A DNA stretch of 64,000 bases from Acidobacteriota bacterium. Its GTDB lineage: Bacteria; Acidobacteriota; Blastocatellia; Pyrinomonadales; Pyrinomonadaceae. Positions 30,155 through 52,875 of the stretch are shown one piece after another. Numbering within the stretch: the stretch's first letter is position 1; each line of letters starts with the position of its first letter. The stretch lies in NCBI GenBank assembly GCA_003222895.1, contig QHXI01000056.1:1-64000 (forward strand). The letters run 5' to 3'. The translations under genes and the position numbers were made by a program. The notes beneath the pieces are model-generated. The model was given only the letters and a program-made list of their open reading frames with translations, was not told the DNA's origin and made no database searches.

Positions 30155-30297
30155 AGCGCCGCTAGGCGCGGAATATTTATAGCCCCGATAGCGACTCCTT
30201 TCAGAAGCGGTCAAGAACGAGAAGCTTCCCGCTCCTGACCGCCACACGATCTAAAAAGAGGAACGTTATTCTATAAATATTAGGCTCTTACGGAGCC
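30155..30297. repeat. AATATTT-ended dispersed element, copy 2
   Basis: The left end AGCGCCGCTAGGCGCGGAATATTTATAG and right end CTATAAATATTAGGCTCTTACGGAGCC are inverted. An imperfect central hairpin is anchored by GCGGTCA/TGACCGC. The right end overlaps the last codons and the stop of the giant cytochrome gene. Confidence 0.85.
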
Positions 30298-34319: not shown

Positions 34320-34329
34320 ATCTGCGGCT
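34222..34329. repeat. Inverted repeat (GCGGATGAACGCGGAT type) at the start of the giant cytochrome gene
   Basis: AGCCGCGGATGAACGCGGATAGACGCGGAT (34222-34251) and ATCCGCGTGCATCCGCGCAAATCTGCGGCT (34300-34329) are nearly complementary. Both arms lie at the 5' end of the cytochrome gene: one covers its start codons and the other encodes part of its signal region. Confidence 0.8.
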
Positions 34330-34334
34330 AATTA

Positions 34335-36458: not shown

Positions 36459-36614
36459 AAGAAGGAAAATTAATCGACGTTGACTTGTAGCATACGAGCG
36501 ATCCGCTATCAATCAAAATTTTCGCCAAGAAAATCGTTTCGCTTGCCGGTGATTAATGATAGATTTTCAAATCCTCCGGACTTTCAGTTGCGAACACGCA
36601 GTCGTGGCACGTCG

Positions 36615-38768
36615 ATGACAGCCAAAGCATCCGTCAGGCGCGGGCACCTCGTTCTAGCATTGTCGGTATCCATAGCTGCGCTCGTCGTTGCTTCTGCGCT
36701 CACGCGCAGCCACGCACAAGCGACCAAACTGGTTTTGATCAGCCAGGAAACATCGACGCGCGCGATCGCGGCTGATTCAGTGACCCTGAAGCGTGAGCCG
36801 TTCCAAACAACTTCAGAAGTGACCTGGGGCAATGACGCCCGCACGCGCGTGATGTTGTTCGCGATGGGACTGGCTCGCGACGCGTCGCCAGCGGACATCA
36901 GCGCCACGGCCGAAGATGGATCGCATAAGCAGTATCCGTTAACAGTTGAATACGTCGGCCCGGTGCCTGAGCAGGATTGGGCCACGGCAGTGGTCGTGCG
37001 CCTCAACGATCAGATGGGCGATCTCGGCGACGTGCTGATCGGTATCAGTTATCAAGGATCGAATTCCAATCGAGTCCGTGTCGGCATTGGTCATGTTGGC
37101 GATGGACCGCCGGACGACAAAGGAGCAGTGCCGACGCCGGGAACAATTTCACCTTCTCTGGCGCCGGCCGCAACCGCCGGGACGCTGACCACCAGCGACG
37201 TGCAGACGATCATTGCGCAGGCAGTTTCCGCGGCGGCATCAATTAACCGCGCCGTGACGGTCGCCGTCACCGACAAAGAAGGAAATGCGTTGGGCGTGTT
37301 TCGTATGACCGGCGCGCCGGCGACGACACAACTTCGTGGCGGTGGACCAGGACCAACCCTGGCGCCGAATCCGATTACAGGATTTGTCGCGACAGGTTTG
37401 GACGGCAGCGTTGTGCCGGCAAAGGTCGCCGCAATTTCGAAAGCCGGCACGGCGGCTTTGTTCAGCACCCGGGGCAATGCGTTCACGTCACGCACGGCCG
37501 GCTTCATCATCCAGGAACATTTTCCGCCCGGCGTTGATTTCAGATCTGGCGGCCCGCTTTACGGAGTCCAGTTCTCTTCCTTGCCATGTTCGGACATCAA
37601 GACCCCGGGCTTGCCGCTCGGACTCAGCGGCGATCCGGGCAGCGCTCCGATTTACAAAAACGGTGAAGCTGTCGGCGGCGTGGGCATCGAAGGCGACGGC
37701 GCCTACACGGTCGATCGCGATCCGACAGATTTCGATCAACCGTTCGAAGAAGTGATCGCCGTTTCGGCGACGAGAAGTTTCGAGGCGCCTTCGTTGATTC
37801 GCGGGGACAACATTCTGGTCGATGGAATTCGACTGGCTTATCTAAACGTCACGAACGCGCCGGTGCCAGCGACGATCGCGTTTGGAAGTTTACCGGGCGC
37901 GGTCGATCCTTTGTTTCCAATTCGCGCCGCGCAACTTTCGGAATTCACACCGGCGATTGTCGGCGGCATCGCCGGCGAAGTCGACACAAGATTCTTCCCG
38001 TTCGCCGGCAGTCCCACGGTGACTGCGAATTCGTTGACGGCTGCCGACGTCAACACGATCATTTCGCACGCGGCGCAACAAGCCAACATCACGCGGGCCG
38101 CAATTCGCCAGCCGCTCGGCAGCAATGCGCGCGTCTCGATCGCGGTCGTCGATACGAACGGAGTCGTGCTCGGCATATTTCGTCAACAGGATGCGCCAGT
38201 GTTTGGATTCGACGTTTCGGTTCAGAAAGCTCGCACGGCGGCGTTCTATTCAAGCGGCAACGCCGGTGCTTTGCTGCGCGGCGCCGGCTTTGGATCGTAT
38301 GTCGATCGCGCGTCGGCAGATGGTTTGAAACTTGATGGTTCAGTTGCATTCACGGATCGCGCGGGAGGATTTCTGCATCGACCTTTCTTCCCTGACGGCA
38401 TCAACAACAGCGCCGCCGGACCATTCAGTCGCGAGCTTAACGAGTGGAGTGTCTTCAACGTAGGTCTGCAATTGGATCTAATCAAGACCAATCTGCAGAC
38501 GGTTCTGAGCGGCGGCGCGGCACCCTGCACGTCGATTCCGAATCTGCCAAATGGCATTCAGATTTTTCCCGGCAGCGTGCCGTTATATAAAAACGGCGTG
38601 CTGGTTGGCGCGATTGGCATCAGCGGTGACGGAGTCGATCAGGACGATCTGATTGCTGCCGGAGGAGGCGCAGGTTTCGCGCCGCCAGTGAACATTCGCT
38701 CAGATCAAGTCCTGGTGCGCGGCGTGCGGCTGCCGTTTCTGAAGTTTCCACGCAGCCCCAATTTGTAG
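36615..38768 (+). CDS. Exported protein with two HbpS/GlcG-type (heme-binding) domains
   Basis: The protein has 717 residues from ATG 36615 (MTAKASVRRGHLVLALSVSIAALVVASALTRSHAQA). Two copies of the HbpS/GlcG fold are visible. Copy 1 runs from TTSDVQTIIAQAVSAAASI to GVGIEGDGAYTVD, and copy 2 from TAADVNTIISHAAQQANI to GAIGISGDGVDQDD. Both have the family signatures VAVTDKEGNALGVFRM / IAVVDTNGVVLGIFRQ and IYKNG or LYKNG. HbpS-type proteins bind heme in the envelope. The first about 150 residues are a separate beta domain of unknown role. Next to five cytochromes, heme handling is plausible. Confidence 0.85.
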   Translation: MTAKASVRRGHLVLALSVSIAALVVASALTRSHAQATKLVLISQETSTRAIAADSVTLKREPFQTTSEVTWGNDARTRVMLFAMGLARDASPADISATAEDGSHKQYPLTVEYVGPVPEQDWATAVVVRLNDQMGDLGDVLIGISYQGSNSNRVRVGIGHVGDGPPDDKGAVPTPGTISPSLAPAATAGTLTTSDVQTIIAQAVSAAASINRAVTVAVTDKEGNALGVFRMTGAPATTQLRGGGPGPTLAPNPITGFVATGLDGSVVPAKVAAISKAGTAALFSTRGNAFTSRTAGFIIQEHFPPGVDFRSGGPLYGVQFSSLPCSDIKTPGLPLGLSGDPGSAPIYKNGEAVGGVGIEGDGAYTVDRDPTDFDQPFEEVIAVSATRSFEAPSLIRGDNILVDGIRLAYLNVTNAPVPATIAFGSLPGAVDPLFPIRAAQLSEFTPAIVGGIAGEVDTRFFPFAGSPTVTANSLTAADVNTIISHAAQQANITRAAIRQPLGSNARVSIAVVDTNGVVLGIFRQQDAPVFGFDVSVQKARTAAFYSSGNAGALLRGAGFGSYVDRASADGLKLDGSVAFTDRAGGFLHRPFFPDGINNSAAGPFSRELNEWSVFNVGLQLDLIKTNLQTVLSGGAAPCTSIPNLPNGIQIFPGSVPLYKNGVLVGAIGISGDGVDQDDLIAAGGGAGFAPPVNIRSDQVLVRGVRLPFLKFPRSPNL

Positions 38769-38771
38769 TCG

Positions 38772-39557
38772 GTGATTACACGAGTCATCTTCGCTTTAGT
38801 CTGTTGCCTGCTGGCTGTCTCTTTCTCTTTGGTCGCGCACACGCAAACTCCCCAAGCCGCGCGCGGCGTCATTCGTTTGAAAGTCAAATACAAATCGAGC
38901 GAAGTCACCAAAGAGTTGCCGCGCAAGCGATTCTTTCTGATTAATGGCTCGATCGATCAAAACAAATCGTTAGTCGAACAAATCAAACAGACACCGCTAA
39001 TGTCGCGCGAGTGTTATTACCGGAACCACGGCGCAAGTGACGCGCTGATCAAGTGGCTGAACGAAAATGATTGTGAATCGGTTTATTGCCGCGCCATCGA
39101 AGAAAAGTACACCGGAGGCCGCGAAGCCGTGCCGGAATTCAAGGCGGCGTACGATCAAGCGCTGGGCGAATTGAAGGCGCCGGCGATTGCGCGGCGATGG
39201 CTGCCGAATTATCTCGCGCCTGAGATTCGCGATGGTTTCTACACCGCGAAGCAGCAAACGATTTCGAATTTGGTGAAGCAGGCCGAGACCGCGACCGGGA
39301 AACCCGTGATGTCGATCATGACGGATCGCAAAGGGACTGCTTATCTGACTGACATCGATCCAGGCGTCTATACGATCTCAAATCTGGTCGGAAGCGAAAC
39401 TAACAAGAGCAGCATTTTGTGGGTATGCGAACGCGAAGTGAAAGCGACGGACCTGACGATCGCGATGAAGCGGCCGTTCATCTTGTCGAACGAAAAAGAT
39501 CCGAAGGTGAAGTGCGAAGTGATTGAACGGCCCTTGCCGGTTTGTGGTGCTAGATAA
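38772..39557 (+). CDS. Exported protein of unknown family, partner of the HbpS-like gene
   Basis: The protein has 261 residues with a GTG start at 38772, 3 bases after the HbpS-like stop. The signal peptide is MITRVIFALVCCLLAVSFSLVAHTQ. The mature part has several cysteines (SRECYYRNHG; NDCESVYCRAIEEKY; VCEREVK) and a C-terminal region with a carboxypeptidase-regulatory-like phrase (RKGTAYLTDIDPGVYTISNL). There is no CxxCH heme site. I do not recognise the family. Tight spacing implies it works with the HbpS-like protein. Confidence 0.7.
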   Translation: MITRVIFALVCCLLAVSFSLVAHTQTPQAARGVIRLKVKYKSSEVTKELPRKRFFLINGSIDQNKSLVEQIKQTPLMSRECYYRNHGASDALIKWLNENDCESVYCRAIEEKYTGGREAVPEFKAAYDQALGELKAPAIARRWLPNYLAPEIRDGFYTAKQQTISNLVKQAETATGKPVMSIMTDRKGTAYLTDIDPGVYTISNLVGSETNKSSILWVCEREVKATDLTIAMKRPFILSNEKDPKVKCEVIERPLPVCGAR

Positions 39558-39571
39558 TCGCGAAGGGTTTT

Positions 39572-39720
39572 ACCCGCGTAGCGGCGGAATATTTATAGTA
39601 CCGCCGCCAGGAGATAAATTCTCAGCTCCTTTTAGGAGCGAAATCCACATTGCGCCCATAAATGGGCTATGAAAACTCATTTCGTGAACTGGAGCTATAA
39701 ATATTTCGCGCCTACAGCGC
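39572..39720. repeat. AATATTT-ended dispersed element, copy 3
   Basis: The left end ACCCGCGTAGCGGCGGAATATTTATAG and right end CTATAAATATTTCGCGCCTACAGCGC are inverted. Small internal palindromes include GCTCCTTTTAGGAGC. The right end contains the only available ATG of the first nonaheme cytochrome gene and encodes its first about 17 residues. Confidence 0.85.
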
Positions 39721-40805
39721 TTTGCAAAACAAGATTTGTCGGCGCGTGCTGGCTCGTTACAGTAATGCTCTCGTGCCACTTCGGAATGTCGAGCGAGGCT
39801 GGCGCCCAGACTCGCCGTCGCCCAGGCACTACGCGACCTGCGCCGCAAGCGCAAGCGCCCCGCCGATCCACCATAAAGTATTCTGCCTTTCTTCATTCAT
39901 CGGACAAGCACAAGAGCCTTCAATGCAATGCTTGTCACAGGATTCCGACTGCGTGGAATGCGAAGCGCACATTTCCCGACGTCGCCGATTTTCCGGATCA
40001 CGACGCGTGTGTGCGCTGTCATCGTTCGCAATTCTTTTCCGGACAAGCGATGATCGGAACGGGTCCGGCGATTTGTACGGTGTGTCACGTACGCGCCGCG
40101 CCGCGTGAAGACGCCCGGTTTGCGTTTGGCCGGCCTAACAATTCGGACCAGCAAGTGAAGCCAAAAGACGAACGCCAGTTCGCGATCGAATTTCCGCACG
40201 ACAAACATCAGAACGCGATCGCGTCCACTTCGAGCGTTCGATTCGTCGTCGCATCTTTCACCGGACCGGTGGACGATCAGGCGCCCGATTACAACAACTG
40301 CTCGATCTGTCATCAACCAAACAAAACGCTCGCGATCGCACCCCTGCCAATATCGTCGCCCGATCCGGCTATGCTCTATCCATTCAAGTCGATGCCGCAC
40401 AGCCACGACGCGTGCTTTGACTGTCATTGGAAAAATCTGAAGCCAACGAGCGACGACTGTGGCGGCTGTCACAAAGCTTCGGCGACGTTCATTGCAGTTC
40501 TAGCTCCGAAGCGTATCTCTGCAAAGTTCGCGCACGCAGGGGGCAAAGGCGGGCACGTCATGGAATGCACGACTTGCCACATCAACATCACGCGCGCGAG
40601 CACGTTGCGGGGACTGACGCCTGATGTGCCCATTGCGGCGTGCACGACCTGTCACAAAGACAGCAAGAAGACGACGTATCCGAAAGCTATGACGATTGAA
40701 GAAGAATTTGCACAGAACAAGAAGACCGGCGAGTGCACTTACTGTCACACGGCCGAAGTTGGCAAGAAAAGGCCGCCGCCGAGTCATGAAACGGCGGCAC
40801 AGTAG
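39669..40805 (+). CDS. Exported nonaheme cytochrome c (c3-like), paralog 1
   Basis: The protein has 378 residues. Nine CxxCH sites are present: CNACH, CVRCH, CTVCH, CSICH, CFDCH, CGGCH, CTTCH, CTTCH and CTYCH. Several extra His (HDKH, HSHDAC) could be distal ligands. A hydrophobic segment (VGACWLVTVMLSCHFGMSSEAGA) acts as a signal peptide. The residues before it come from repeat copy 3, and no other in-frame start lies between 39669 and 39765. The first heme region (YSAFLHSSDKHKSLQCNACH) matches that of the next gene (YSKFLHTSSKHASIGCNECH), so the two are tandem paralogs. Probable periplasmic electron carrier. Confidence 0.88.
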   Translation: MKTHFVNWSYKYFAPTALCKTRFVGACWLVTVMLSCHFGMSSEAGAQTRRRPGTTRPAPQAQAPRRSTIKYSAFLHSSDKHKSLQCNACHRIPTAWNAKRTFPDVADFPDHDACVRCHRSQFFSGQAMIGTGPAICTVCHVRAAPREDARFAFGRPNNSDQQVKPKDERQFAIEFPHDKHQNAIASTSSVRFVVASFTGPVDDQAPDYNNCSICHQPNKTLAIAPLPISSPDPAMLYPFKSMPHSHDACFDCHWKNLKPTSDDCGGCHKASATFIAVLAPKRISAKFAHAGGKGGHVMECTTCHINITRASTLRGLTPDVPIAACTTCHKDSKKTTYPKAMTIEEEFAQNKKTGECTYCHTAEVGKKRPPPSHETAAQ

Positions 40806-40810
40806 AAGCA

Positions 40811-40852
40811 GAGGTCAGAGGTCAGAGGTCAGAGGTCAGAGGTCAGAGGTCA
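40811..40852. repeat. 7-bp tandem repeat, six copies of GAGGTCA
   Basis: Six perfect copies of GAGGTCA lie between the two nonaheme cytochrome genes, ending 15 bases before the second start. The variable copy number of such arrays could alter the spacing or the leader of the downstream gene. Confidence 0.95.
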
Positions 40853-40867
40853 GAAAAGTAAGAGCAG

Positions 40868-41674
40868 ATGATCGTTCGCGCAACATTTTTGATTTTGTTT
40901 TCTTTCGCGTTGCTCAGTTTCGTCTACGCGCAGGGCAACGATCAGGATTACTCGAAATTCCTGCATACAAGTTCCAAGCACGCGTCGATAGGATGCAACG
41001 AATGTCATCGTCGTAATGACAACTCATCCCGACCGAGTTTCCCAGGTCACAAGTCATGCACGGGTTGTCACCTTACGCAATTCACGACGCCTATACTGCC
41101 GATGTGCTCGATCTGTCATCAGAGCGTCAACGGGAACGATCCGCCGCGCAAAGCTTTCCCGGACAAATTCAAAGAGAGCTTCAACCTGAAGTTCGATCAT
41201 GCGCAGCACATGACGGCGGCCGCGCGACCGAAGAACGGATGCGTCGCTTGTCACAGCTCGCCTTTGCGTCGCGGGGCGGCGTTGTCGATCCCAAACGGAA
41301 TGGGCGCGCACGATGGTTGTTACTCTTGCCATACGCCGAACGCTACTTCGAACGGGCGCGACCTCGCCTCGTGCGGTGTCTGTCATGCGACAAAGTCGTA
41401 CGCGCGCACTCAGACCGACTCGCCTGCGTACCGCATCGGGTTCAATCATGCCGAGCACGGCACACGACAGCGACTAAACTGTTCTGATTGCCACAACTAC
41501 ACCGTGGGCTTGCCGCAGCGGCGCCAGGTTAGTTCGCCGCGCGCGCAGGAACATTTCCCGAGCGGCAACAATTCATGCGCAACTTGTCATAACGGCCGAA
41601 GATCCTTCGGTGGCGATTTGGATTTCAAGGCGTGCCGGCGATGTCATGAGGGAGCGAGCTTTCGCACGAGTTGA
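40868..41674 (+). CDS. Exported nonaheme cytochrome c (c3-like), paralog 2
   Basis: The protein has 268 residues with a signal peptide (MIVRATFLILFSFALLSFVYAQ). Nine CxxCH sites are present: CNECH, CTGCH, CSICH, CVACH, CYSCH, CGVCH, CSDCH, CATCH and CRRCH, about one heme per 28 residues. The spacing and the phrases FDHAQH and FNHAEH resemble cytochrome c3/c7-type packing, in which paired His ligands coordinate each heme. It is shorter than its upstream paralog. It probably passes electrons in the periplasm between membrane and outer-membrane partners. Confidence 0.9.
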   Translation: MIVRATFLILFSFALLSFVYAQGNDQDYSKFLHTSSKHASIGCNECHRRNDNSSRPSFPGHKSCTGCHLTQFTTPILPMCSICHQSVNGNDPPRKAFPDKFKESFNLKFDHAQHMTAAARPKNGCVACHSSPLRRGAALSIPNGMGAHDGCYSCHTPNATSNGRDLASCGVCHATKSYARTQTDSPAYRIGFNHAEHGTRQRLNCSDCHNYTVGLPQRRQVSSPRAQEHFPSGNNSCATCHNGRRSFGGDLDFKACRRCHEGASFRTS

Positions 41675-41835
41675 TTAACCACCGAGGACACAGAGAAGAA
41701 CAAATCGCCAAGTGGTAAGTGCAAAGAGCCAAGTCGAATTGTCCCCGTTGAAGTCATCTGGCGCGTTCGCACTTGCTCCTTGCCCTCAGCGCTTGGCCCT
41801 TTGCTCGTGTTTCCTCTGTGTCCTTTGTGGTTAAT
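41674..41835. repeat. Long-hairpin dispersed element (accACCGAGGACACAGAG type)
   Basis: ATTAACCACCGAGGACACAGAG is matched by TTCCTCTGTGTCCTTTGTGGTTAAT on the right. A nested inner pair (GCAAAGAGCCAAG / CTTGGCCCTTTGC) lies inside. It begins at the stop of the second nonaheme gene. Relatives lie at 42486, 47835, 52916, 57184 and, for the inner part, 59203. Confidence 0.85.
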
Positions 41836-41905
41836 CTTATTGACAGAGCGGCAAGCGTCTCCCTAACATGCGACGCAACATTGAGACGAGAATGGGGAGG
41901 GTGAG

Positions 41906-42478
41906 ATGAAGCGAGTTCCGATCGGACTAATCGTTGGTTTATTCGCCGTGGCGTTGTTAGTTCTGACCACTGGCGCGCGCACGCCGGTGCCGCAGCAGAT
42001 TCCCAAAGAAAGCAAAGACCAGCCGACCAAAGTAAAGCTCGATACGGACAGCCTGGACGACAAATGGGGCGAAGTCGCCTTCGATCACGAAACTCACTCA
42101 GTCAAGAAATACAATCCCGACGGCGCGGGCGTCACAGCCTGCACGTTCTGTCATCACACCGATCAGCCGAAAGAAAATCTCAAGCCGCCAAGAACTACGT
42201 CAGAGCGCAACGTCGTGCTAACCGCCGATGTCTTGAAGGACGCGGCCGCCACGCCGGTCAAGACCTGCCGCCAGTGTCACCTGCAAGCCGGCGACGACAG
42301 CAAGCAACTTCCGGTGATTACGAAAGACGGAAAGGAGGTAAAGATGGATAACGAGAACGCATATCACATCAACTGCTTTGAGTGTCATGACGCTGCGATC
42401 AAAGCGAAGCCCGAATTGGCTCAGAAGATTTCCGGATCAGATCCGAAGGGCTGTGGGAAGTGTCACGTTGCGAAGTAA
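41906..42478 (+). CDS. Exported tetraheme cytochrome c3-like protein
   Basis: The protein has 190 residues. ATG 41906 is preceded by GGGGAGGG. The signal peptide is MKRVPIGLIVGLFAVALLVLTTGA. Four CxxCH sites are present: CTFCH followed by H (CHHTD), CRQCH, CFECH and CGKCH at the C-terminus. FDHETHS before the first site supplies probable distal His ligands, as in class III cytochromes c. Small tetraheme proteins of this type shuttle electrons in the periplasm. It closes the plus-strand cytochrome run and is convergent with the heptaheme gene. Confidence 0.9.
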   Translation: MKRVPIGLIVGLFAVALLVLTTGARTPVPQQIPKESKDQPTKVKLDTDSLDDKWGEVAFDHETHSVKKYNPDGAGVTACTFCHHTDQPKENLKPPRTTSERNVVLTADVLKDAAATPVKTCRQCHLQAGDDSKQLPVITKDGKEVKMDNENAYHINCFECHDAAIKAKPELAQKISGSDPKGCGKCHVAK

Positions 42479-42485
42479 GAGCAGC

Positions 42486-42725
42486 ATCCACAGATTACGC
42501 AGATTACCCAGACAAGAAAAAATCAGGGCAAAACGTTGGTCGCGAATTGACCACCAAGACACAAAGAATACTAAGTCGGCAACTCGAAATGAGTTCGCTT
42601 TACTTTCTAAAATCTCCTTTGTGTCCTTTGTGACTTTGTGGTGAGTGTTTTGGAGTGATTGCAGTTGCGAACAATACTTAGCACACTGTCATTTCCTATC
42701 TGTGTAATCTGCGTAATCTGTGGAT
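42486..42725. repeat. Nested double hairpin element between convergent cytochrome genes
   Basis: The outer arms ATCCACAGATTACGCAGATTA and its complement at 42704-42725 enclose a second pair (GACCACCAAGACACAAAG / CTTTGTGACTTTGTGGTG). The right outer arm overlaps the heptaheme gene and encodes its last residues (STDYADYTDRK). Confidence 0.85.
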
Positions 42726-43630
42726 AGGAGTCCCGGATTCCAGTGCCGCTTGTCCTGCAAGTGTTGCACGTGACATGAAGTGCAGTTCGGTTTGTCGGAC
42801 GCAATCACCTGTCCGCCCGCGCGCGCATCCACTTGACCGTTATGACACTTGCCGCAGGTTGTTCGCGGCGTCCTGAGATCGATCGGATCGCGCGTGGCAT
42901 GGCAACTCGAACAACTCAGCTCGCCTTCTTTGTTTCCCGGCAAACCTCCGACAGCACGAACTCGATAAAGATGGACCGCGTGAAATTGTTTGCTGCGCCA
43001 TTGATCTTCCGTGTCGCTCGGTAAGCGTTCCAGCTTCAAAGTATCTTTGCGCACAGACATCTCGTCGGCGTCTAACCCCGCCCACTTCCAATGTCCGTTC
43101 ACGACTGGATAACCAAACGTGCCGCCGTGCGGAGTCGCAACACTCTTGCCGTTGTAAAATTTCTTGTTCCGATCGTTGTGGCATTCGAAGCAAGACAACA
43201 ACGCGCCATCGATCGCATTGAACTGTGAACCGCGATGTTCGGCATGACAATCGATGCAACCGATGCCGGCGCTCACGTGCGGCTTGATCACCGTCGCCTT
43301 AAACGCGTCAGTGGTATGGCACGATGAACATTGCTTCTCCATGTTCGTGCTCCATGCGTGACATGACGTACACGACCCGGCATTTGCGTGATTCGCGATG
43401 GGAGGTTTCAGATTCATGCTCGCGCGCTCGTGCGCATCCGAGATTGGCGCGGGCGCGAACGCTCGCGCATAAATCAGCGCGCCGCCGATAGACAGTAATA
43501 CGACGGGAATCACTCCCCACAAGAGCATCGAGGCTGGCCAGCGTCTGCGCAGATCAGTTGTCGGCGACCAGACGGATTGCGCTTTGCCGCTCGGCCTGCC
43601 AGTCAAAGGAAACAGCGGCGAAGGCTTCAC
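42689..43630 (-). CDS. Membrane-anchored heptaheme cytochrome c
   Basis: The protein has 313 residues. An N-terminal cytoplasmic stretch of about 33 residues is followed by one membrane helix (SMLLWGVIPVVLLSIGGALIYA), used as an uncleaved anchor. Seven CxxCH sites are present: CTSCH, CSSCH, CIDCH, CFECH, CSSCH, CGKCH and CTSCH. It starts inside the FHA gene stop (4-bp overlap), so the two are translationally coupled. As an anchored cytochrome it may take electrons from the ferredoxin/membrane protein of the same operon. Its final residues are repeat-derived. Confidence 0.9.
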   Translation of the reverse strand: MKPSPLFPLTGRPSGKAQSVWSPTTDLRRRWPASMLLWGVIPVVLLSIGGALIYARAFAPAPISDAHERASMNLKPPIANHANAGSCTSCHAWSTNMEKQCSSCHTTDAFKATVIKPHVSAGIGCIDCHAEHRGSQFNAIDGALLSCFECHNDRNKKFYNGKSVATPHGGTFGYPVVNGHWKWAGLDADEMSVRKDTLKLERLPSDTEDQWRSKQFHAVHLYRVRAVGGLPGNKEGELSCSSCHATRDPIDLRTPRTTCGKCHNGQVDARAGGQVIASDKPNCTSCHVQHLQDKRHWNPGLLSTDYADYTDRK

Positions 43631-44079
43631 CGTTTTCGTAGCCGCGGTGATTCGCTTGTCCCAAAAAACGTCGAGAGCCTTCGAGCTTGCGTCAGCCGGT
43701 TTCGGTTTGCGCGAGAGCGCTTTCTTCTTGTGTCCGGCGGTTTCTGCAGGAGCGGCTGCAGCGAAACTTTGATCGTCAATGAGCCTTGCGCAAACGTGAC
43801 GTTGAGCGCGAATGGGCCAATCCCGAGCACGTCCCCATCGGCGAGCGCTTCGTACTCTTCCAGTTTTGTTGCGTTCAGCAGAATCGGATTGCCCGGGCGC
43901 AAGTTGCGAACATAGTACTCGCCGTCGGCGTAGGTAACGCCGGCATGAAGACGAGAAACTGATGGATGATTTAGCAGCAGTTCACAAGTCGGCAGCCGAC
44001 CGATGAGCACACCTTCGGCGACGATCGTCACCGGATCGACCTGCAAGTCTTCGCGGACGATGATGAAGGTTGCTTCCAT
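43627..44079 (-). CDS. FHA-domain protein
   Basis: The protein has 150 residues from ATG 44079; upstream in-frame codons come from a repeat. Residues 5-95 form a forkhead-associated domain with the conserved GRLPTCELLLNHPSVSRLHAGV and YYVRNLRPGNPILLN. This is the fold that binds phosphothreonine. The tail (about 100-150) is basic (RRKRSRANRNRLTQARR). FHA proteins usually read Ser/Thr-kinase signalling. It sits between a cyclic-nucleotide/ferredoxin fusion and a heptaheme cytochrome in one operon, which points to regulation or assembly of a redox complex. Confidence 0.9.
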   Translation of the reverse strand: MEATFIIVREDLQVDPVTIVAEGVLIGRLPTCELLLNHPSVSRLHAGVTYADGEYYVRNLRPGNPILLNATKLEEYEALADGDVLGIGPFALNVTFAQGSLTIKVSLQPLLQKPPDTRRKRSRANRNRLTQARRLSTFFGTSESPRLRKR

Positions 44080-44081
44080 TC

Positions 44082-44184
44082 GAGCGCAGGCATCCTGCGT
44101 GCGGTGCGCAGGCATCCTGCCTGCAATCTTGTTTTAGAACGGCGAGCAAGATGCTCGCGGACCGCACGCAGGATGCGTGCGCTC
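44082..44184. repeat. Inverted-repeat element (GCATCCTGCGTGCG type) inside the redox operon
   Basis: GAGCGCAGGCATCCTGCGTGCGGT is matched by ACCGCACGCAGGATGCGTGCGCTC, with a second GCAGGCATCCTGCCTGC palindrome within. It fills the whole gap between the cyclic-nucleotide/ferredoxin gene and the FHA gene. As RNA it would form a stable hairpin between two cistrons. Confidence 0.9.
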
Positions 44185-46647
44185 CTATCTGACGTTGAAA
44201 AAAACGACTTGCACAATATGCACGACCATCAGCGCCAGCATCACGCACGTAGCTATCACGTGCCGCGCAATCCAAATCTTCAGCAGTCGATGAAGATAAA
44301 TTAGCGCATCGACGCGACGCAGCATCGCGAATCGTTCGATCGCTCTTAACAACAGATTTCGCTGTTCTTTGTCATTCGTAGCGACCATCTCGTTCTTAAA
44401 ATAAAATCGGGCTTTCGCGAGCGCAGCCGTCAACTCTTCGCGTCGCAAGTATTCCTTCATCAAATAGCCAATCGAGGAGAAATATCGCCGCACCTTGTTT
44501 TCGATCAACTGGCGCGTAACTTCGTTGGCCTTGCTCTCGATCGATGAGAGCTCATTACGCAATTCGGCGCGGCGGCCTTCGAGGTCTTCGATCAGCAGCG
44601 GATCGCCTTCGATACTGGTCATGATGCGCGGCACAATCAGGTAACAGAAAACTCCAAACAATCCGGTGAGAATCGTGGCGTCAAACCAGAGCATCAGGAT
44701 CAGCGTCAGCAATCCGCCGCCGTGACTGCCGCCATGAAACAGCAAAGCGATGCCGGCCAGGACACCGAAGTAAACATGCGCGAGCAGCCAGTAACGCAAC
44801 GCTCCGGCGCGCCGGCGATAGATTGTTTTGCGCACCGGATACGTCATCACTGCGGCGATGCCGGCGAGTCCCACCAAGCCTGTCAACCAGCGCAACGTCA
44901 GCCAGACTCCGCGCAGCGGCTGATTGAATCCGTAATGCATCGCGGCCCACGCGATCAGCATCGTCACTGCCAACGTTCCCGCGATTCCGCCGATGTGCCA
45001 GAGCCGCGCGACCGGATCGCTCTGGTGGATATTGCGGCCGATCGCGTGCGTCTGATCGCGAAACACCAGGCCCAGCGTCTTGTCGATCTCATCAAAATAT
45101 TCATGAGGATTGACGCGAACGAGCGCGCCCGTGGGGCAATTCTCTTCACATGAGTAGGCCGGACGTTTCGCACCGTTCGGATTCAGCGGTGTGTTTTCGC
45201 AGAGGTTGCACTTGATCGCGATCATGTCGTCTGCTTCAGCGATGGGCGCGGGTTCAGGAGCTTTGAGACTAAAAACTCTCTTGAGTCGGGTGAGTGGAGT
45301 GGTTCGCGCCGGCGGTGGCGGATTGCGCGGCACCATCGAGATCGCGTTATAAGGACATTGCGTCGCGCAATCGAAACATCCGATGCACGTCGGCGGATCG
45401 ATGTCGACGTGGCCTCTTGGATCGCGAAAGATCGCGCCCGTCGGACAGCCCGTCAGGCATTCAGGATCTTTGCAGTGCATGCAGACCGAAGGCGACAACA
45501 CATGTTGAGTGTTCGCGCTGTCGGGCTTCACCGGACGCTCGATGTGAATTCCGCGGCGCAGTAGTCGCGACTGTCCATGGACTTTGTGGCAGGCGAGCGA
45601 GCAGTTGCCGCAACGCACGCACAAGTCCATGTCCATCACCAGCAGATTGACGCCGTCAACGATTCCGGTCGCGATTTCTTTTTCCGCGGCGGCTCGGACA
45701 CTCTTGTCTGTCAGAGCTTCAACGCGCGTGTCGTCATCTGCGAGTGAGAAGTTCGCGAAGGCTTTGCCCACTCGTTCGCACAACGCCGGATCTGCATGCA
45801 ACGCGGTCAACGGAATCTCGAGCACTTCGCTCCGCGCCATCAACTCAGCCGAGTACTGCCATGTCGCTTGTCCCTTTAACGCTTCAAGACCGAGACAATT
45901 TCCCGCGCCCAGGAAATCTTCCGGAATCAAACTGCTGGAGGCTGCCCCTGCGCCTTCGGTCACTTCTTTGTAGATGGGCACGCCGCGCACGCGGCGCAAC
46001 CAGCCGCTGCGAATCAGAACAATTTTGTCGATTTGGGTGCCTTCCTTGACCAAAAGATGATGCTTTCCATAAGCGAGAAAGTGGGCGAGGTTACCAACGG
46101 CAACTAGATCGACTGGAGTTAAGGCATCGCCGGCGGCCTCCTGAAGTTCGCCGATCGTGTGTGCTAATCCGTGACCGCGATAGGTGTCGTCAACTTTTTC
46201 GGCAAACTTTTTCAGTGACCGCAGCAGACGCAGCGCCGGCCGCACCATCTCGATCACGTTTGCTTCGCGACCGTTGTCGGAGCACATGATCGTGGCGTTG
46301 CGCGGCACGCCGGCGAGAATCGACATCTCGCCAAAACACGTTCCGGGCGGGAGTACACCGACTTTTCTTTTCTTACCGGAATCGTCATCGCTGGCAAACA
46401 CCTCCAACTCAGCATCCAGCGAAAAATAAAACGTGTTGCCGCCCCAATCGCCTTCACGCATCACTACTTCGCGGGGCGCGTAGGTAAGCAGGCGCGCATA
46501 CGGACCAATTTGTTTGCCGCCGGCTTCTTTGCCTTCGGCGATCATCTTCAGGTTGTTTTTGTTTTTGTCTTCGAGCAGTTCAGAGAGAACATCGATCTTC
46601 TTGATCGCTTCGAGAATCGCTTCGGGAATCGTGCTCACTCTCGGCAT
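44185..46647 (-). CDS. Fusion: two cyclic-nucleotide-binding domains, four-cluster ferredoxin, multispan membrane domain
   Basis: The protein has 820 residues from ATG 46647 (MPRVSTIPEAILEAI); earlier codons to 46746 are repeat-derived. The first cNMP domain (about 35-150) has a good phosphate cassette (FGEMSILAGVPRNAT). The second (about 185-300) is degenerate. Residues 335-530 hold four Cys clusters: CVRCGNCSLAC, CMHCKDPECLTGCP, CIGCFDCATQCP, and CNLC with a later SCEENCP, as in DmsB/HybA-type electron-transfer subunits. About five membrane helices follow, with His in or near several (RLWHIGG, AHVYFG, FHGGSHGG, VVHIVQVV), possibly binding heme b. It appears to be a cNMP-responsive electron-transfer protein of the inner membrane. 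I know no characterised protein with this order. Confidence 0.85.
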   Translation of the reverse strand: MPRVSTIPEAILEAIKKIDVLSELLEDKNKNNLKMIAEGKEAGGKQIGPYARLLTYAPREVVMREGDWGGNTFYFSLDAELEVFASDDDSGKKRKVGVLPPGTCFGEMSILAGVPRNATIMCSDNGREANVIEMVRPALRLLRSLKKFAEKVDDTYRGHGLAHTIGELQEAAGDALTPVDLVAVGNLAHFLAYGKHHLLVKEGTQIDKIVLIRSGWLRRVRGVPIYKEVTEGAGAASSSLIPEDFLGAGNCLGLEALKGQATWQYSAELMARSEVLEIPLTALHADPALCERVGKAFANFSLADDDTRVEALTDKSVRAAAEKEIATGIVDGVNLLVMDMDLCVRCGNCSLACHKVHGQSRLLRRGIHIERPVKPDSANTQHVLSPSVCMHCKDPECLTGCPTGAIFRDPRGHVDIDPPTCIGCFDCATQCPYNAISMVPRNPPPPARTTPLTRLKRVFSLKAPEPAPIAEADDMIAIKCNLCENTPLNPNGAKRPAYSCEENCPTGALVRVNPHEYFDEIDKTLGLVFRDQTHAIGRNIHQSDPVARLWHIGGIAGTLAVTMLIAWAAMHYGFNQPLRGVWLTLRWLTGLVGLAGIAAVMTYPVRKTIYRRRAGALRYWLLAHVYFGVLAGIALLFHGGSHGGGLLTLILMLWFDATILTGLFGVFCYLIVPRIMTSIEGDPLLIEDLEGRRAELRNELSSIESKANEVTRQLIENKVRRYFSSIGYLMKEYLRREELTAALAKARFYFKNEMVATNDKEQRNLLLRAIERFAMLRRVDALIYLHRLLKIWIARHVIATCVMLALMVVHIVQVVFFNVR

Positions 46648-46914: not shown

Positions 46915-47811
46915 ATGCTAGAGCCCCTGCAAATGCGTGCCCCTTCAAAACGCTGGTTAGCGCTGGCGAGCATCATTTTTGTTTCCACCGCATCGCTCGC
47001 CTGGGGTTTCACGCGACTACGCCGCATCGCGAACGTTGAAGGGGCACCCGCCTTAAAACGAGGGGCGGGAGTCGGAGGCCGGGGGTCGGAATCATCTTCG
47101 TCATCGGATCGAACTTCCCGAACGCAGTTAATTGATTCGGATAACGACGGCATTCCTGACGTTATCGAGTTGCACACCTATCAGGATCGCGACAGCTTCC
47201 GGCGGTGGTTCACCGCGATTGCCGAAACCGAATTTTATCAACTGAGCGATCAGTGGAACGCTGAGCAACGGGATTGCGCCGGGCTGGCGCGCTTTTCGAT
47301 TCGCGAAGCGCTGCGCCATCACGATCGCGCATGGTTTCAAAAAATGGGGCCGGGTTATGAAACCGTCGCGCCGGACGTTGGCGAGTTGGATCTCGATCAC
47401 AACCCGCTCGGCGAGAAGATATTTCGCACTGATTTTGGATCGTTCGACGAAAGTGATTTGCGTAATGGCCGATTCAGCGAGTTCGCTGACGGCCGATCGC
47501 TCAAGAATTTCAACAGCGTATTCGTAACTCGTGATCGACGCGAAGCTCAACCCGGCGACTTGCTTTTCTTTTATCAGCCGTGGGTCCAAAAGTTTCCCTA
47601 TCACGTGATGGTTTTTCTGGGGTCGGCGCACATCGCGTCAAACGGCGCCAACGATTGGGTCGTCTATCACACCGGTTCGTCGCCAAACGACAAAGGCACG
47701 GTGAAGAAGGTCGAGCTGTCCGTGCTCGATCATCATCCCGATCCGCGTTGGCGGCCCGTTGAAAGCAACAAGAATTTTCTGGGGTTTTATCGATTGAAGA
47801 TTTTGCAGTGA
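46915..47811 (+). CDS. DUF1175-family exported protein (NlpC/P60-like)
   Basis: The protein has 298 residues with an N-terminal anchor or signal (RWLALASIIFVSTASLAWGF). Residues 75-298 match DUF1175 (YfaT-like). Cys121 in RDCAGLARFSIREAL and a His in YHVMVFLGSAHIASNGAND fit a papain-like NlpC/P60 peptidase or amidase site. DUF1175 genes lie beside alpha-2-macroglobulin genes in proteobacteria, as here (the next gene). ATG 46933 is an alternative start. Confidence 0.85.
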   Translation: MLEPLQMRAPSKRWLALASIIFVSTASLAWGFTRLRRIANVEGAPALKRGAGVGGRGSESSSSSDRTSRTQLIDSDNDGIPDVIELHTYQDRDSFRRWFTAIAETEFYQLSDQWNAEQRDCAGLARFSIREALRHHDRAWFQKMGPGYETVAPDVGELDLDHNPLGEKIFRTDFGSFDESDLRNGRFSEFADGRSLKNFNSVFVTRDRREAQPGDLLFFYQPWVQKFPYHVMVFLGSAHIASNGANDWVVYHTGSSPNDKGTVKKVELSVLDHHPDPRWRPVESNKNFLGFYRLKILQ

Positions 47812-47834
47812 GGTTTCGTGCTCCAAATGAGATT

Positions 47835-47910
47835 TCACCACAGAGACACCGAGAACCACAGAGACACAGAGACTCTGTGCCTTTGTGCGAACTCAGTGTC
47901 TCTGTGGTGA
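47835..47910. repeat. Hairpin dispersed element (TCACCACAGAGACAC type)
   Basis: TCACCACAGAGACACCGAG is matched by GTGTCTCTGTGGTGA, with internal CACAGAGAC/GTCTCTGTG words. It sits between the DUF1175 and alpha-2-macroglobulin genes, 40 bases before the start of the latter. Confidence 0.9.
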
Positions 47911-47949
47911 GAGTTCTTAATCAAGCGACCTCTTTCGAGGGTAAAAATC

Positions 47950-50900
47950 ATGTCTGAAACAAATCCCCGCGTTCGTCGCTACGTTGCGACCGCCGTCATT
48001 TATCTCGCGCTCGTCGCCTCGGTCTTCGGCTTCAACATGATGCGCGCGCGCACCACCTTGGCGAGCGCCGAGCTCAGTGGCGAAACACCGGCGCCGACGG
48101 TCTCTAGCACGAAGCCTTATTTCTCGCTGACGACGAATCGGACTTATTCGCCGAACGAATCAGCGCGGCTGTGGGCCAGCTATCAAAATATCGACTACCT
48201 GGATTTCCGTGTCTATCGAATCAAGGATCCGAACAAATTTTTCAAGCAGCTCGACGATCCGCACGAAATGGGCGAGAAGGAAAAGGAACAGATCGCCCAG
48301 GGCTACGGCGCGCGCGTTTCTCTGCTCGAGCGCACGCATCGTTTGAAGATTTCGATTTTCTCTGCCGTCAAAGATTATGTACGCACGCATCTGCTGAAAG
48401 ATCATCGCGCAAGATTCAATGAAAACTATCGCAAGGAACCCGAAGCCACACGAACGCCGCTGAACGTCGCGGATTACGCGCGGGTGCCTTTGCTGAATCC
48501 GGATCAGAAGGTGAAGGACTGGCGCGAGAAACTGCCGGCCCTCGAGAATGAATACGACAGCCGAATGATCTCGCTCGGCAAAGTCGATCCAGGTGTCTAC
48601 TTGATCGAAGGCGTCAGCGGCGGGATGCGAGCTTACTCGCTGGCGATCGTCACGAACCTGACCATGATCGAAAAGACTAACAAGCACGGTCAGGTCGTGG
48701 TCTACATTGTCGATCGCAAAACGGGCGCGCCGCACGAAGGCGTCGCCGTCGAAGTTACGAACGCGAAGAATACTTTGGCGACCGGCAAGACAGATAAAAC
48801 CGGTGTCTACAAGACTGATGTTAAGGTTCCGGAAACGCCTGAGACACCGGCCGAAGACGTCAATCCCGAAGAGTCGCAGAAGAATCCGTTTCTGATCATG
48901 GCGCGTGAGCGCGACAACTTCGTCATTTCCGATCTTGAATCGTTCTACTTCGGCGGCGGTGGCGGCGAAGACGACGTGCTGACCGGCGAAGACGTCACCA
49001 GCTACATCTATACCGACCGGCCAATCTATCGGCCTGCGCAATCGGTTTTCTTCAAAGGCATTCTGCGTCAATGGACCACCAATGGTTACAAGCTGCTCGA
49101 CAGCAAAACCGTTAACGTTGTCGTCGAAGATCCCAACAACGGCAAGCTCTTTGAAAAGGATCTACCACTTTCCGATCGCGGGACATTCAGTGGACAGATC
49201 GATTTAGGCGATGAAGCGCCGCTGGGCAGTTACAACGTCACGGCTTCGGTCGGCGAGGCAAAATCCACCGGCTACTTCGAGGTTCAGGAATACAAGAAGC
49301 CGGAATTCAAAGTCACGGTGAAAGGCCCGAAGGAATTCGCGGCCGTTGGCGAGAAGGTTCGCTTCACGATCAGCGCGAATTACTTTTTCGGCGCGCCGGT
49401 AACCAACGCCGACGTGCATTACTACATTTACAAACAACGCTATTACCACTGGTGGTGGGGCGACCAATCGAGCGATGAAATCGACGACGCGGCCGGGCCG
49501 GAGAATGAAGGCGGCGACGAGGATACTTCGGGTTACTACGGCAACGATTTGGTTACCGAAGGCGACGCTGCTTTGAATTCAAGGGGCGAGGCAGCGGTTG
49601 AGTTCGAAGTGCCGGCGCCGGAAGACAAGGAAGAATGGGATTATTCATATCGGCTCGAAGCGCAAGTAACCGACGCCTCGCGTCGCGAGATGCAAGGCGC
49701 GGCTTCTTTCATCGGCACGCGCGGGAAAACTGTCGCCGACGCTTACCCCGAGCGCTATCTCTATTATCAAGGCGACTCGGCAAAGATTCGCGTGAAGACT
49801 GCGGACTATGCGGGCAAACCTGTCTCAGAAAAGGTCACACTGAAGTTCATCGAACAGAAATACGAGAAGAAAGAAAAGGAAGAGGAGTACAACGGCTACA
49901 AGTACAAATCGTACGATTACATTCTGCATGAGCGCGAACTGGCATCAGCTGATGTGAACACGGACAGCCAGGGCGTCGCGACTTACGATTTCACAGTTCC
50001 CTCGCCAGGCGACATCTACGTCAAAGCAATCATCACCGAAAACGGTAAGCAGATCGTGAATCGCGGCGGCTCGTTCTGGGCGCCTGACAAAAAAGGCGAG
50101 TGGTCGGACTTTTCGTACCGCGACTACGACGAGAAGGCGATCAAGCTGGTGCCCGACAAGAAATCTTATAAGCCGGGCGAGACCGCGCACGTCCTGGCGA
50201 TGCTACCGGCAGACAAGGCTCACCTGCTGGTCACCACTGAACTGTCTGAGGTTCTTACGGTCCAACAGATCGATGCGTCCGGTCGCAGCATCGTCATCGA
50301 CGTGCCGATCGATCGCAAGTACGAGCCCAACGTCTACCTCGACGTGTCGTTCGTCAAAGACAATGACATGTACAACCAGAGTCAGATTCTCGCTGTGCCC
50401 GCGCGCGACAAGATGCTGAAGCTCGACATCGTTCCGAACAAAAGCGAGTTCAAGCCGCGCGATGTCGCGTCATACACAATCGTCGCTCGGAACGATGACG
50501 GCTCGCCCGCGGCAAACACCGAAGTAAGTCTGGGGATCGTCGACGAAGCCATCTATAGCATCCAGCCTGAGACGGCCGGCAATATCAAGCGCGAGTTTTA
50601 TGGCAAGCGCTATGACGAAGTGCAAACGAGCCTCGCGATTCATTACACGTTCACCGGTTACGCCGGCGAGAAGCCCGCCAACCTCGCAAAGAATAAATCC
50701 GGGTATCAGCTCGCCGATTTTAAGAACGAAAGTTCTTACGCCGAACCAACTGTCCGCAAGGAATTCAAAGACACTGCATTCTGGCAGCCTGACGTCGTCA
50801 CCGGCGGCGATGGCAAGGCGACCGTCAGTTTCAAACTGCCCGACAACTTGACTACCTGGCGGGCGACTGCGCGCGGCGTGACCGCTGACACGCGCGTCGG

Positions 50901-52875
50901 ATCGTCGGTGCAAAAAACGATCGCGCGCAAGGACGTGATCATGCGGCTCGAGATGCCGCGCTTCTTAACTGAAGGCGACACGGTCACGATCTCTGGCGTC
51001 GTGCACAACTTCCTGAAAAATGACAAGTCGATAAAGATTTCGCTCGAACTGAATGGCGCGCAGTTGCTCGACTCGCCAACGGAAACCGTGACGATCAAAC
51101 AGAACGGTGAGCACCGCGTCGACTGGCGCGTGCAAGCGAACCAGGTCGGCAAACTGACGCTGCTGGCAAAGGCTCTGACCGACACTGAATCCGATGCGGT
51201 CGAGATGACCATGGACATCGTGCCGCACGGCCTGAAACAAACAGCTGGCAACACGACCGCCGTGACGCAGAACGACGCGGAGCAGACTTTCAATCTCGAT
51301 CTGCCCGCGCGTGCTGACGTGCAAGCGCGAAATCTGCGCATTGAAGCGTCGCCTTCGATTGCCGGCGCGTTGTTCGGCGCGCTCGATTACCTGACAAGTT
51401 ATCCGTACGGATGTACCGAGCAAACGATGTCGAGCTTCCTGCCTAACGTCGTCGTTGCGCAGACCCTCAAAGACATTCCGACGGCGAAGATTCGCGCCTC
51501 GAATGATCTCGACAAGAAAGTTCAGAAAGGTCTCGATCGCTTGTACGCTTATCAGCACGACGATGGCGGTTGGGGTTGGTGGAAAGATGATAAGAGCGAT
51601 CCATTCATGACCGCGTATGTGGTTGATGGTCTGACAATGGCCAGCCGCGCCGGTTATCAGATTGACGGATGGCGGCACGCGCAGGGACGACAGAAGCTTT
51701 CTGCGTTGCTCACTGCCGGTAAGAATGACAACGGCAATCCGATCGACGATGAAACGCGTGCTTACATGATCTACGCGTTCACCGAAAGTGGCGACGGCGA
51801 TACGCACTTCCTCGACGATCTCTACGGCAAGCGTAACAACCTGGGACCATATGGGCGTGCGTTGCTCGCGCTCGGTTTGCAGGAGCGGAAGGATGGCCGC
51901 GCGAGCGAAATCGCAAAGTTGATCGAGGGTTCCACGCAACAGGACGAGTTCGAAGCGCATTGGCAGACGGCGCGCGTGAACGACTACGGTCGGGACGTGT
52001 ACCTCGACGCCGAAGCGACTTCACTGTCGTTGAAGGCGCTCTCGCAAATTAATCCCGGTTCGTCGCTGCTCCCAAAGGCCGCGCGCTGGCTCGTTAAGAA
52101 CCGGCGCAATGGTTACTACTGGCTCTCGACCAAGGAGACTGCGTTCGCGATCTATGGCTTGACTGATTATTTGAAAGTCAGCAAGGAACTTTCGCCTGAT
52201 TACTCATTCGAAGTTTACTTGAACGGCGAGAAGGTGGCCGGACAACACATTGGCGCGAGCGAAGCGACGAACGCCCAGACAATCACGATCAGTAAGAAGG
52301 GCAACGAAGTCGGCGGTTCGAACCAAATCCGGATCGTGAAGCACGGCAAGGGCGCCCTATATGTTTCCAGCGCGCTGGAATACTTCACGGCCGATGAAAA
52401 TGTTCCGGCGAATTCATCTGCCGGTTTGAAGCTCACGCGCGAATATCTGCGCCTGCACGTGACTGAAAACGACAGCGGCAAGCCAAGCTGGAAGATTGAA
52501 CCGCTAGGCAACAGCGAGCTGCGTTCGGGCGATATGATCGTTGTGCGTCTGCACCTGACCGGTCCGCGCGCGCAGTACTTGATGATTGAAGATCCGATTC
52601 CGGCGGGCGCCGAACAAGTCGCGCAGGTCAGTGGCATCTATCTGAACTACTCGTTGGGCCAATGGAGCGATTGGTACAGCAACCGCGAGTTCCGCGACAA
52701 CCGCACCGCGATCTTCATGAATTATTTTGACGGCGACGCGACGCTGCAATACGCAATGCGTGTCGAAGTGCCGGGCGAATTCAAGATCGCGCCGGCGCGC
52801 GCGGAACTGATGTATCAACCGACCGTGCAAGCGAATACATCGAATGACCGGTTGAGAATTTTGGATAAGAAGTAG
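47950..52875 (+). CDS. Alpha-2-macroglobulin family protein with thioester motif
   Basis: The protein has 1,641 residues. An N-terminal membrane segment (YVATAVIYLALVASVFGFNM) lacks a lipobox, so it is anchored or secreted. MG-type domains include YIYTDRPIYRPAQSVFFKG near residue 355. The A2M domain follows (TAFWQPDVVTGGDGKATVSF, DNLTTWRATARGV). The thioester motif YPYGCTEQ has Cys1155, and the alpha/alpha thioester domain runs to about 1400. In the bacterial family it traps proteases in the periplasm. A Glu/Lys/Tyr-rich insert lies around residues 500-660. GAGGG lies 9 bases before the start. Confidence 0.95.
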   Translation: MSETNPRVRRYVATAVIYLALVASVFGFNMMRARTTLASAELSGETPAPTVSSTKPYFSLTTNRTYSPNESARLWASYQNIDYLDFRVYRIKDPNKFFKQLDDPHEMGEKEKEQIAQGYGARVSLLERTHRLKISIFSAVKDYVRTHLLKDHRARFNENYRKEPEATRTPLNVADYARVPLLNPDQKVKDWREKLPALENEYDSRMISLGKVDPGVYLIEGVSGGMRAYSLAIVTNLTMIEKTNKHGQVVVYIVDRKTGAPHEGVAVEVTNAKNTLATGKTDKTGVYKTDVKVPETPETPAEDVNPEESQKNPFLIMARERDNFVISDLESFYFGGGGGEDDVLTGEDVTSYIYTDRPIYRPAQSVFFKGILRQWTTNGYKLLDSKTVNVVVEDPNNGKLFEKDLPLSDRGTFSGQIDLGDEAPLGSYNVTASVGEAKSTGYFEVQEYKKPEFKVTVKGPKEFAAVGEKVRFTISANYFFGAPVTNADVHYYIYKQRYYHWWWGDQSSDEIDDAAGPENEGGDEDTSGYYGNDLVTEGDAALNSRGEAAVEFEVPAPEDKEEWDYSYRLEAQVTDASRREMQGAASFIGTRGKTVADAYPERYLYYQGDSAKIRVKTADYAGKPVSEKVTLKFIEQKYEKKEKEEEYNGYKYKSYDYILHERELASADVNTDSQGVATYDFTVPSPGDIYVKAIITENGKQIVNRGGSFWAPDKKGEWSDFSYRDYDEKAIKLVPDKKSYKPGETAHVLAMLPADKAHLLVTTELSEVLTVQQIDASGRSIVIDVPIDRKYEPNVYLDVSFVKDNDMYNQSQILAVPARDKMLKLDIVPNKSEFKPRDVASYTIVARNDDGSPAANTEVSLGIVDEAIYSIQPETAGNIKREFYGKRYDEVQTSLAIHYTFTGYAGEKPANLAKNKSGYQLADFKNESSYAEPTVRKEFKDTAFWQPDVVTGGDGKATVSFKLPDNLTTWRATARGVTADTRVGSSVQKTIARKDVIMRLEMPRFLTEGDTVTISGVVHNFLKNDKSIKISLELNGAQLLDSPTETVTIKQNGEHRVDWRVQANQVGKLTLLAKALTDTESDAVEMTMDIVPHGLKQTAGNTTAVTQNDAEQTFNLDLPARADVQARNLRIEASPSIAGALFGALDYLTSYPYGCTEQTMSSFLPNVVVAQTLKDIPTAKIRASNDLDKKVQKGLDRLYAYQHDDGGWGWWKDDKSDPFMTAYVVDGLTMASRAGYQIDGWRHAQGRQKLSALLTAGKNDNGNPIDDETRAYMIYAFTESGDGDTHFLDDLYGKRNNLGPYGRALLALGLQERKDGRASEIAKLIEGSTQQDEFEAHWQTARVNDYGRDVYLDAEATSLSLKALSQINPGSSLLPKAARWLVKNRRNGYYWLSTKETAFAIYGLTDYLKVSKELSPDYSFEVYLNGEKVAGQHIGASEATNAQTITISKKGNEVGGSNQIRIVKHGKGALYVSSALEYFTADENVPANSSAGLKLTREYLRLHVTENDSGKPSWKIEPLGNSELRSGDMIVVRLHLTGPRAQYLMIEDPIPAGAEQVAQVSGIYLNYSLGQWSDWYSNREFRDNRTAIFMNYFDGDATLQYAMRVEVPGEFKIAPARAELMYQPTVQANTSNDRLRILDKK

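Follow-up and report, generated by a model that had tools for sequence, protein, structure and literature searches.

We analysed a 64,000-nucleotide stretch of an Acidobacteriota bacterium of the class Blastocatellia (family Pyrinomonadaceae; contig QHXI01000056.1, positions 1 to 64,000), hereafter the window. Positions 42689-46647 of its reverse strand encode a membrane protein with cyclic nucleotide-binding (CNB) and iron-sulfur (Fe-S) domains, termed the core protein, together with FHA and heptaheme cytochrome domains. This locus would form the inner-membrane end at which electrons enter a trans-envelope conduit that is driven by NAD(P)H or ferredoxin and is equipped with a cyclic-nucleotide sensor and an FHA domain; we assign this reading a probability of roughly 0.6. 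The parts, their order and their topology were read from the sequence, and from these we infer the direction of the electrons, the acceptor, ligand binding and gating.

Core protein and Fe-S domain

The core protein (820 aa; 44188-46647, minus strand) begins with the ATG at 46647 and ends at 44188. A sequence-only reading of the window had proposed one polypeptide with a cyclic nucleoside monophosphate (cNMP) domain, a degenerate second one, a four-cluster ferredoxin and about five membrane helices. This was borne out by the Pfam matches, 16 Cys residues and five hydrophobic transmembrane (TM) helices, giving the order CNB1-CNB2-4x[4Fe-4S]-di-heme-b-like membrane domain. With a threshold of E < 1e-40, the core query matched in 69 of the 147 Blastocatellia genomes sampled, and the same full-length domain order recurred across the class at 41-81% identity. 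A scan of named genome contigs yielded 78 loci with core relatives, nearly all from Blastocatellia and other Acidobacteriota, some being Chloracidobacterium-like; a few loci at 26-31% identity belonged to a Myxococcales bin, proteobacterial bins and a Thermoanaerobaculia bin. The locus neighbourhoods derive from a simple open reading frame (ORF) caller, which did not settle L091 and L109. Since the ORF layout was identical in dozens of genomes, an assembly artefact was ruled out as the origin of the core fusion. No NCBIfam model scored over its cut-off for the window proteins, and Foldseek with the full core model gave only cNMP proteins among the matches listed.

The domain for four [4Fe-4S] clusters occupies residues 337-520 (45088-45639, minus strand). 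Its 16 Cys form four ferredoxin-type CxxC...C sets (343/346/349/353, 389/392/397/401, 421/424/427/431, and 480/483/500/504), and several Fer4 families were matched in Pfam. Each of these Cys was kept in 75-79 of the 79 aligned sequences, the remainder being gaps. The closest named subunits in NCBIfam were DsrO, ArrB, and NrfC (65, 63, and 62 bits, respectively); the equivalog score of DsrO, NrfC, ArrB, DmsB or HybA was not reached (best 65 bits vs. a cut-off of 200).

Membrane domain and electron input

The membrane domain (44191-45015, minus strand) has five TM helices, and the distribution of hydrophobic helices and the positive-inside rule place the N-terminal domains in the cytoplasm. TM3 and TM5 each contain a His-x13-His pair, H624/H638 and H796/H810, whose members are 14 residues apart. 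These four His were invariant in every relative covering them, and were also kept in a 281-aa stand-alone homologue of locus L134 at 22% identity. NADPH oxidases and ferric reductases follow the same plan of paired His in two helices. The two His-x13-His helices, invariant wherever covered, make a di-heme cytochrome b the probable identity of the membrane domain, with the paired His as putative ligands of two b hemes; given the cytoplasmic N-terminal domains, H624/H796 would bind the inner and H638/H810 the outer heme. The domain further contains two conserved His (H786 and H551) and a cytoplasmic helical insert of about 80 residues between TM4 and TM5. The predicted model had a pLDDT of 87.9. 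Foldseek with the membrane domain alone gave no significant match, and a PDB profile search with it gave no match. Cytochromes b of this type also occurred in other surroundings: in another Acidobacteriota family (L165:7144-8994 and neighbours), one lies beside 23-heme and 28-heme cytochromes and a ferredoxin-flavoprotein, and in L166 a 1672-aa ORF with 53 CxxCH motifs is encoded near one.

Relatives of the locus carry NAD(P)H-type modules. In 12 loci, the FHA-multiheme protein has a second TM helix, beyond which it carries two [4Fe-4S] sites and a YpdA/TrxR-type pyridine-nucleotide oxidoreductase; about 34 loci encode the YpdA-like flavoprotein/two-[4Fe-4S] module on its own, a short distance downstream. 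L134 has the flavoprotein domain at the N-terminus of CNB-CNB-4xFe-S in one ORF, followed by genes for cytochrome b and an FHA-decaheme protein. Outside the class, NuoEF/NuoG-like input domains were found: in L161 and L164, CNB-CNB-4xFe-S is joined to a NuoG-like Fer2_4 domain and preceded by a NuoE-NuoF fusion, and the Fer2_4 fusion is present in L167 too. That differing NAD(P)H modules have repeatedly been joined to a core that stays constant is the strongest evidence for an uptake of cytoplasmic electrons by the core.

An input module was not found in the genome to which the window belongs, which encodes only a stand-alone YpdA-like protein. This protein was rejected as the missing module, because it is without Fe-S sites and a same-genus genome has it besides the full module. 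As the dedicated module is absent from the genome, a soluble donor or another dehydrogenase would have to feed the Fe-S domain there. Several relatives with an intact FHA-heptaheme gene are also without a nearby input module.

A possible but rather doubtful alternative is that the b domain forms a quinone site and that the NAD(P)H modules are optional side inputs to a complex acting as menaquinol:cytochrome c or ferredoxin:menaquinone oxidoreductase. Quinol could then donate in the window genome, which is without an NAD(P)H-type module, and H786 and H551 could serve the site; the weak likeness to Ni_hydr_CYTB-type cytochromes b, many of which meet quinone, points the same way. However, H-x13-H is confined to just two helices, as in NADPH oxidases and ferric reductases, whose plan is quinone-free, and flavin and NuoEF modules that are repeatedly fused or adjacent favour cytoplasmic input.

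Cyclic nucleotide-binding domains

The core protein matched PF00027 in two stretches with 64 bits (cut-off 27.5). The first cNMP domain, CNB1 (residues ~46-150; 46198-46512, minus strand), has both the above-cut-off profile and a GE(x8)R phosphate cassette, FGEMSILAGVPRNAT (46291-46335, minus strand). The sequence-only reading had pointed out this cassette and considered ligand binding likely; the cassette is present, and its conservation backs the likelihood of binding. Namely, 74 of 75 aligned sequences have E107 and 74 have R116 (the exceptions being L082 for the Glu and L097 for the Arg), and both residues ranked second among the 89 CNB1 columns for conservation. Loss of these pocket residues in homologues, named beforehand as a refuting result, was looked for and not found. 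E107 and R116 are nine residues apart, and the Glu and Arg of the PKA pocket are likewise nine apart. The nearest solved relatives of the domain are PKG/PKA regulatory domains. In most members, N, S or T follows the Arg, which leaves room for either cAMP or cGMP as the preferred ligand. Thus, CNB1 looks like a functioning cNMP receptor, and its predicted ligand binding is well backed by conservation.

The second domain, CNB2 (residues ~180-305; 45733-46110, minus strand), is degenerate: the GE...R motif was absent from it throughout the alignment, and model residues 155-310 matched CNB structures. In L134, L161, L164, and L167, the motif is present in both CNB domains, suggesting that CNB2 lost it at a later stage.

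Both a cyclic-nucleotide and a kinase signal are possible in the window genome, which encodes two class III cyclase domains along with about 27 loci bearing kinases (many Ser/Thr kinases). In L131 (14603-16288), a gene for an FHA-GAF-class III adenylate/guanylate cyclase lies about 1 kb downstream of the module. Because the CNB1 pocket is conserved, PKG/PKA domains are nearest, and cyclases and kinases are present in the genome, direct post-translational gating of the electron-transfer module, as suggested by the sequence-only reading, can soundly be inferred; respiration as the role of the module is plausible. It is improbable that the cNMP domains are merely structural or dimerising and bind no ligand, with regulation being transcriptional or absent. 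Many CRP-fold domains bind no cyclic nucleotide, and CNB2 is already degenerate, but the conservation rank of E107 and R116 would be hard to explain without a phosphate/ribose ligand.

FHA-heptaheme gene

Downstream of the core gene, the FHA domain (43627-44079, minus strand) has its homologous start at the ATG at 44079, while the mechanical ORF start is 44115. It matched PF00498 with 51.9 bits (cut-off 20.7), and the FHA core columns G-R...S-R-x-H...N were kept; the neighbouring NG Gly is Ala in the window. The heptaheme part (P0003; 42689-43630, minus strand) has seven CxxCH motifs and one N-terminal TM anchor. These were previously taken as two genes, the second overlapping the first by 4 bp and membrane-anchored. 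The domains, the seven motifs, the anchor and the GTGA overlap (43627-43630) were all confirmed, but not the separateness of the genes. In 56 of the 78 loci, FHA and 6-8 CxxCH motifs are located within a single FHA-TM-multiheme ORF (seven motifs in 43, eight in 12, and six in one); these loci include three same-genus relatives (L037, L038, and L040). In a DNA alignment with these three, the linker of the window is shorter by about 100 nt (net) near 43730-43756 (minus strand), a deletion that shifts the frame. The heptaheme frame of the window extends upstream with the conserved linker residues DVFWDKRITAATK up to this shift. The in-frame linker and the deletion mark the 4-bp overlap as a by-product, and two natural genes are ruled out by the 56 one-ORF loci together with the deletion. 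To judge from these alignments, the FHA and heptaheme ORFs are one ancestral gene broken by a frameshift, which is either a real mutation or a metagenome assembly error. The heptaheme part could re-initiate at the GTG at 43630. The sequence-only reading was thus right about the anatomy of the locus but not about the two genes; the frameshift it had feared exists, and breaks an ancestral fusion of FHA and heptaheme instead of creating a false one.

The spacer between the core and FHA genes (44085-44181) contains three copies of GCAGGATGCSTGCG in inverted and direct orientation (0.07 expected in the window), which are REP-like (resembling repetitive extragenic palindromes). In the Myxococcales relative (L133:3321-7295), several FHA domains lie ahead of a multiheme-FeS-flavin adenine dinucleotide (FAD) protein.

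Neighbouring genes

The neighbouring outward half (30288-42478) was absent from the sequence-only reading, as were the four membrane His and the NAD(P)H-type module of the relatives. Its plus strand encodes, from the core outwards, a tetraheme cytochrome (41906-42478) and two nonaheme cytochromes with nine CxxCH each (40868-41674 and 39669-40805), all three being conserved neighbours, followed by a conserved exported protein of unknown family (38772-39557) and an exported protein with a repeated HbpS-like domain (36609-38768), which adjoins the module in other Acidobacteriota classes too. On the minus strand lie the genes of a 707-aa protein (34335-36458) and of a large nonaheme cytochrome, 1343 aa long and containing LVIVD repeats (30288-34319). 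The 707-aa protein matched no known family in profile searches; it is a probable outer-membrane beta-barrel on the basis of its signal peptide, C-terminal ...FVF and beta-type alternation. A candidate porin-like protein, whose barrel nature is only suggested, is encoded together with periplasmic multiheme cytochromes. The heme region of the 1343-aa protein is shared with ExtM (62 bits), and the NCBIfam cut-offs of ExtM and ExtO were not reached (62 vs. 800 and 24 vs. 200 bits, respectively).

In L085, L087, L088, L113, L123, and L126, the gene order is barrel (divergent), HbpS-like protein, protein of unknown family, three cytochromes and core, and, where the contig continues, FHA-heptaheme and flavoprotein; the cytochromes and the core lie on the same strand. 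The order input-core-cytochromes-barrel recurs in other families and classes, and in other classes the HbpS-like, barrel and nonaheme genes likewise follow the core. Among the 147 genomes, 66 have both core and barrel, three the core only, six the barrel only, and 72 neither (Fisher p ~1e-30, not corrected for shared descent); the nonaheme LVIVD protein was found in 72. Core and barrel were not within 35 kb on one contig in 13 of the 32 genomes checked, three of which have them on different large contigs. They are also on different contigs in Chloracidobacterium-like two-contig genomes.

On the other side of the core, divergent DUF1175 and alpha-2-macroglobulin genes (46915-52875) are kept beside it in the genus only and are probably unrelated.

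Discussion

Here, we propose a model of the locus by summarizing the above results. NAD(P)H or reduced ferredoxin would deliver electrons to the Fe-S chain of the core protein, which would pass them to two stacked b hemes (H624/H796 inner, H638/H810 outer). From there, they would move through the periplasmic heptaheme domain to the 4- and 9-heme cytochromes, and via the outer-membrane barrel and the nonaheme protein to an extracellular or outer-membrane acceptor. Binding of cAMP or cGMP to CNB1 may shift the CNB pair against the Fe-S domain, altering donor docking or cluster distance, and the FHA domain may bind a phosphothreonine of a kinase or of a partner and so bring in a Ser/Thr-kinase input. 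Tentatively, such loci could represent a class of ligand-gated respiratory entry, in which cAMP or cGMP bound to the relay polypeptide itself would allow or block the passage of electrons across the inner membrane into an extracellular conduit. Kinases would exert a second control through the FHA domain, and the input modules (YpdA-like flavoprotein, NuoEFG-like, or none) would be swapped around a constant sensor core.

Several points weigh against the proposed conduit entry. The hemes, clusters and ligand are predictions from sequence. Pfam Ni_hydr_CYTB was matched weakly, in 12 of 36 members. The structure matches of the membrane domain to cytochrome b561 (4o6y; Z 7.5, rmsd (root mean square deviation) 3.8, 139 aligned) and to an NADPH oxidase (8qt6; Z 6.6, rmsd 3.5, 119 aligned) both lie within helical-bundle noise, unrelated helical proteins scoring as high. 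The window genome is without an input module, and the frameshift in its FHA-heptaheme gene makes impairment of the window copy possible. As for the outward half, the beta alternation that, with the signal peptide and C-terminal signature, suggests a barrel is weak, and shared phylogeny inflates the co-occurrence of core and barrel.

The same hardware might also work inward, with periplasmic or extracellular electrons reaching NAD(P)+ or ferredoxin and the membrane potential driving their passage across the b hemes. Sequence cannot settle the direction of a relay that is symmetric in principle, and the Chloracidobacterium-like relatives could use reverse flow; however, a known enzyme oxidising an external donor was not found in the loci examined, and we regard inward flow as unlikely. 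We give little credence to the window copy being a decaying, non-functional one among intact relatives: the frameshifting deletion and the missing input module fit decay, but open, conserved genes are present for the core, the three periplasmic cytochromes, the barrel and the nonaheme protein, several relatives with an intact FHA-heptaheme gene are equally without an input module, and the deletion could be an assembly error or be bypassed by re-initiation at GTG 43630.

If the locus is a gated conduit entry, a respiratory chain might be under the direct control of a small signalling molecule. Sensor and relay share one polypeptide, so gating is testable on a single purified protein. The locus also provides a candidate envelope-spanning electron route for Acidobacteriota, which are abundant in soil and wastewater; in a survey of wastewater Acidobacteriota, the substrates of most of their multiheme cytochromes were noted to be unknown (PMC8100337).

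Comparison with known systems

Second-messenger effects on extracellular electron transfer are known mainly via gene expression, e.g., c-di-GMP and cGAMP riboswitches in Geobacter (PMC12285248). We found no description of a cNMP-Fe-S-b relay in the open-access literature, the only literature searched, which is weak evidence of absence. PKA/PKG and bacterial CNB proteins (the M. loti channel and mycobacterial Pat) have the same canonical phosphate-binding cassette, with Glu and Arg nine apart; in the core protein, however, the effector would be an Fe-S/heme electron relay. The 16-Cys four-cluster layout is shared with DmsB/NrfC/HybA/DsrO-type subunits, but the core scores far under their equivalog cut-offs, has no molybdo- or hydrogenase partner, and has its Fe-S part fused to cNMP and b-type domains. 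Paired His about 14 residues apart in each of two helices are also a feature of NADPH oxidases, ferric reductases and cytochrome b561, which pass cytoplasmic electrons to the opposite side, as is proposed for the core. The core differs in that it has no Pfam Ferric_reduct match, has five helices with a TM4-TM5 insert, and would be fed by Fe-S clusters, without an attached FNR-fold FAD/NADPH domain. Of the ExtM-ExtN-ExtO selenite/tellurite proteins, ExtM has the heme region in common with the 1343-aa protein, but its score is far under the cut-off, and no common operon plan was shown.

Trans-envelope multiheme conduits for extracellular electron transfer, porin-cytochrome (Pcc) and Mtr, are already known (PMC4245776). 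The locus and its neighbours would share their plan, in which an inner-membrane entry, periplasmic multiheme cytochromes, an outer-membrane barrel-like protein and a large multiheme protein are encoded together, but neither the putative barrel of the window nor its cytochromes matched the MtrB/Omb families. The known entries CymA, ImcH, and CbcL are plain quinol-oxidising cytochromes, whereas the entry proposed here has Fe-S, cNMP, and FHA domains. An entry complex of a conduit with cyclic-nucleotide and FHA domains as built-in parts appears to be new.

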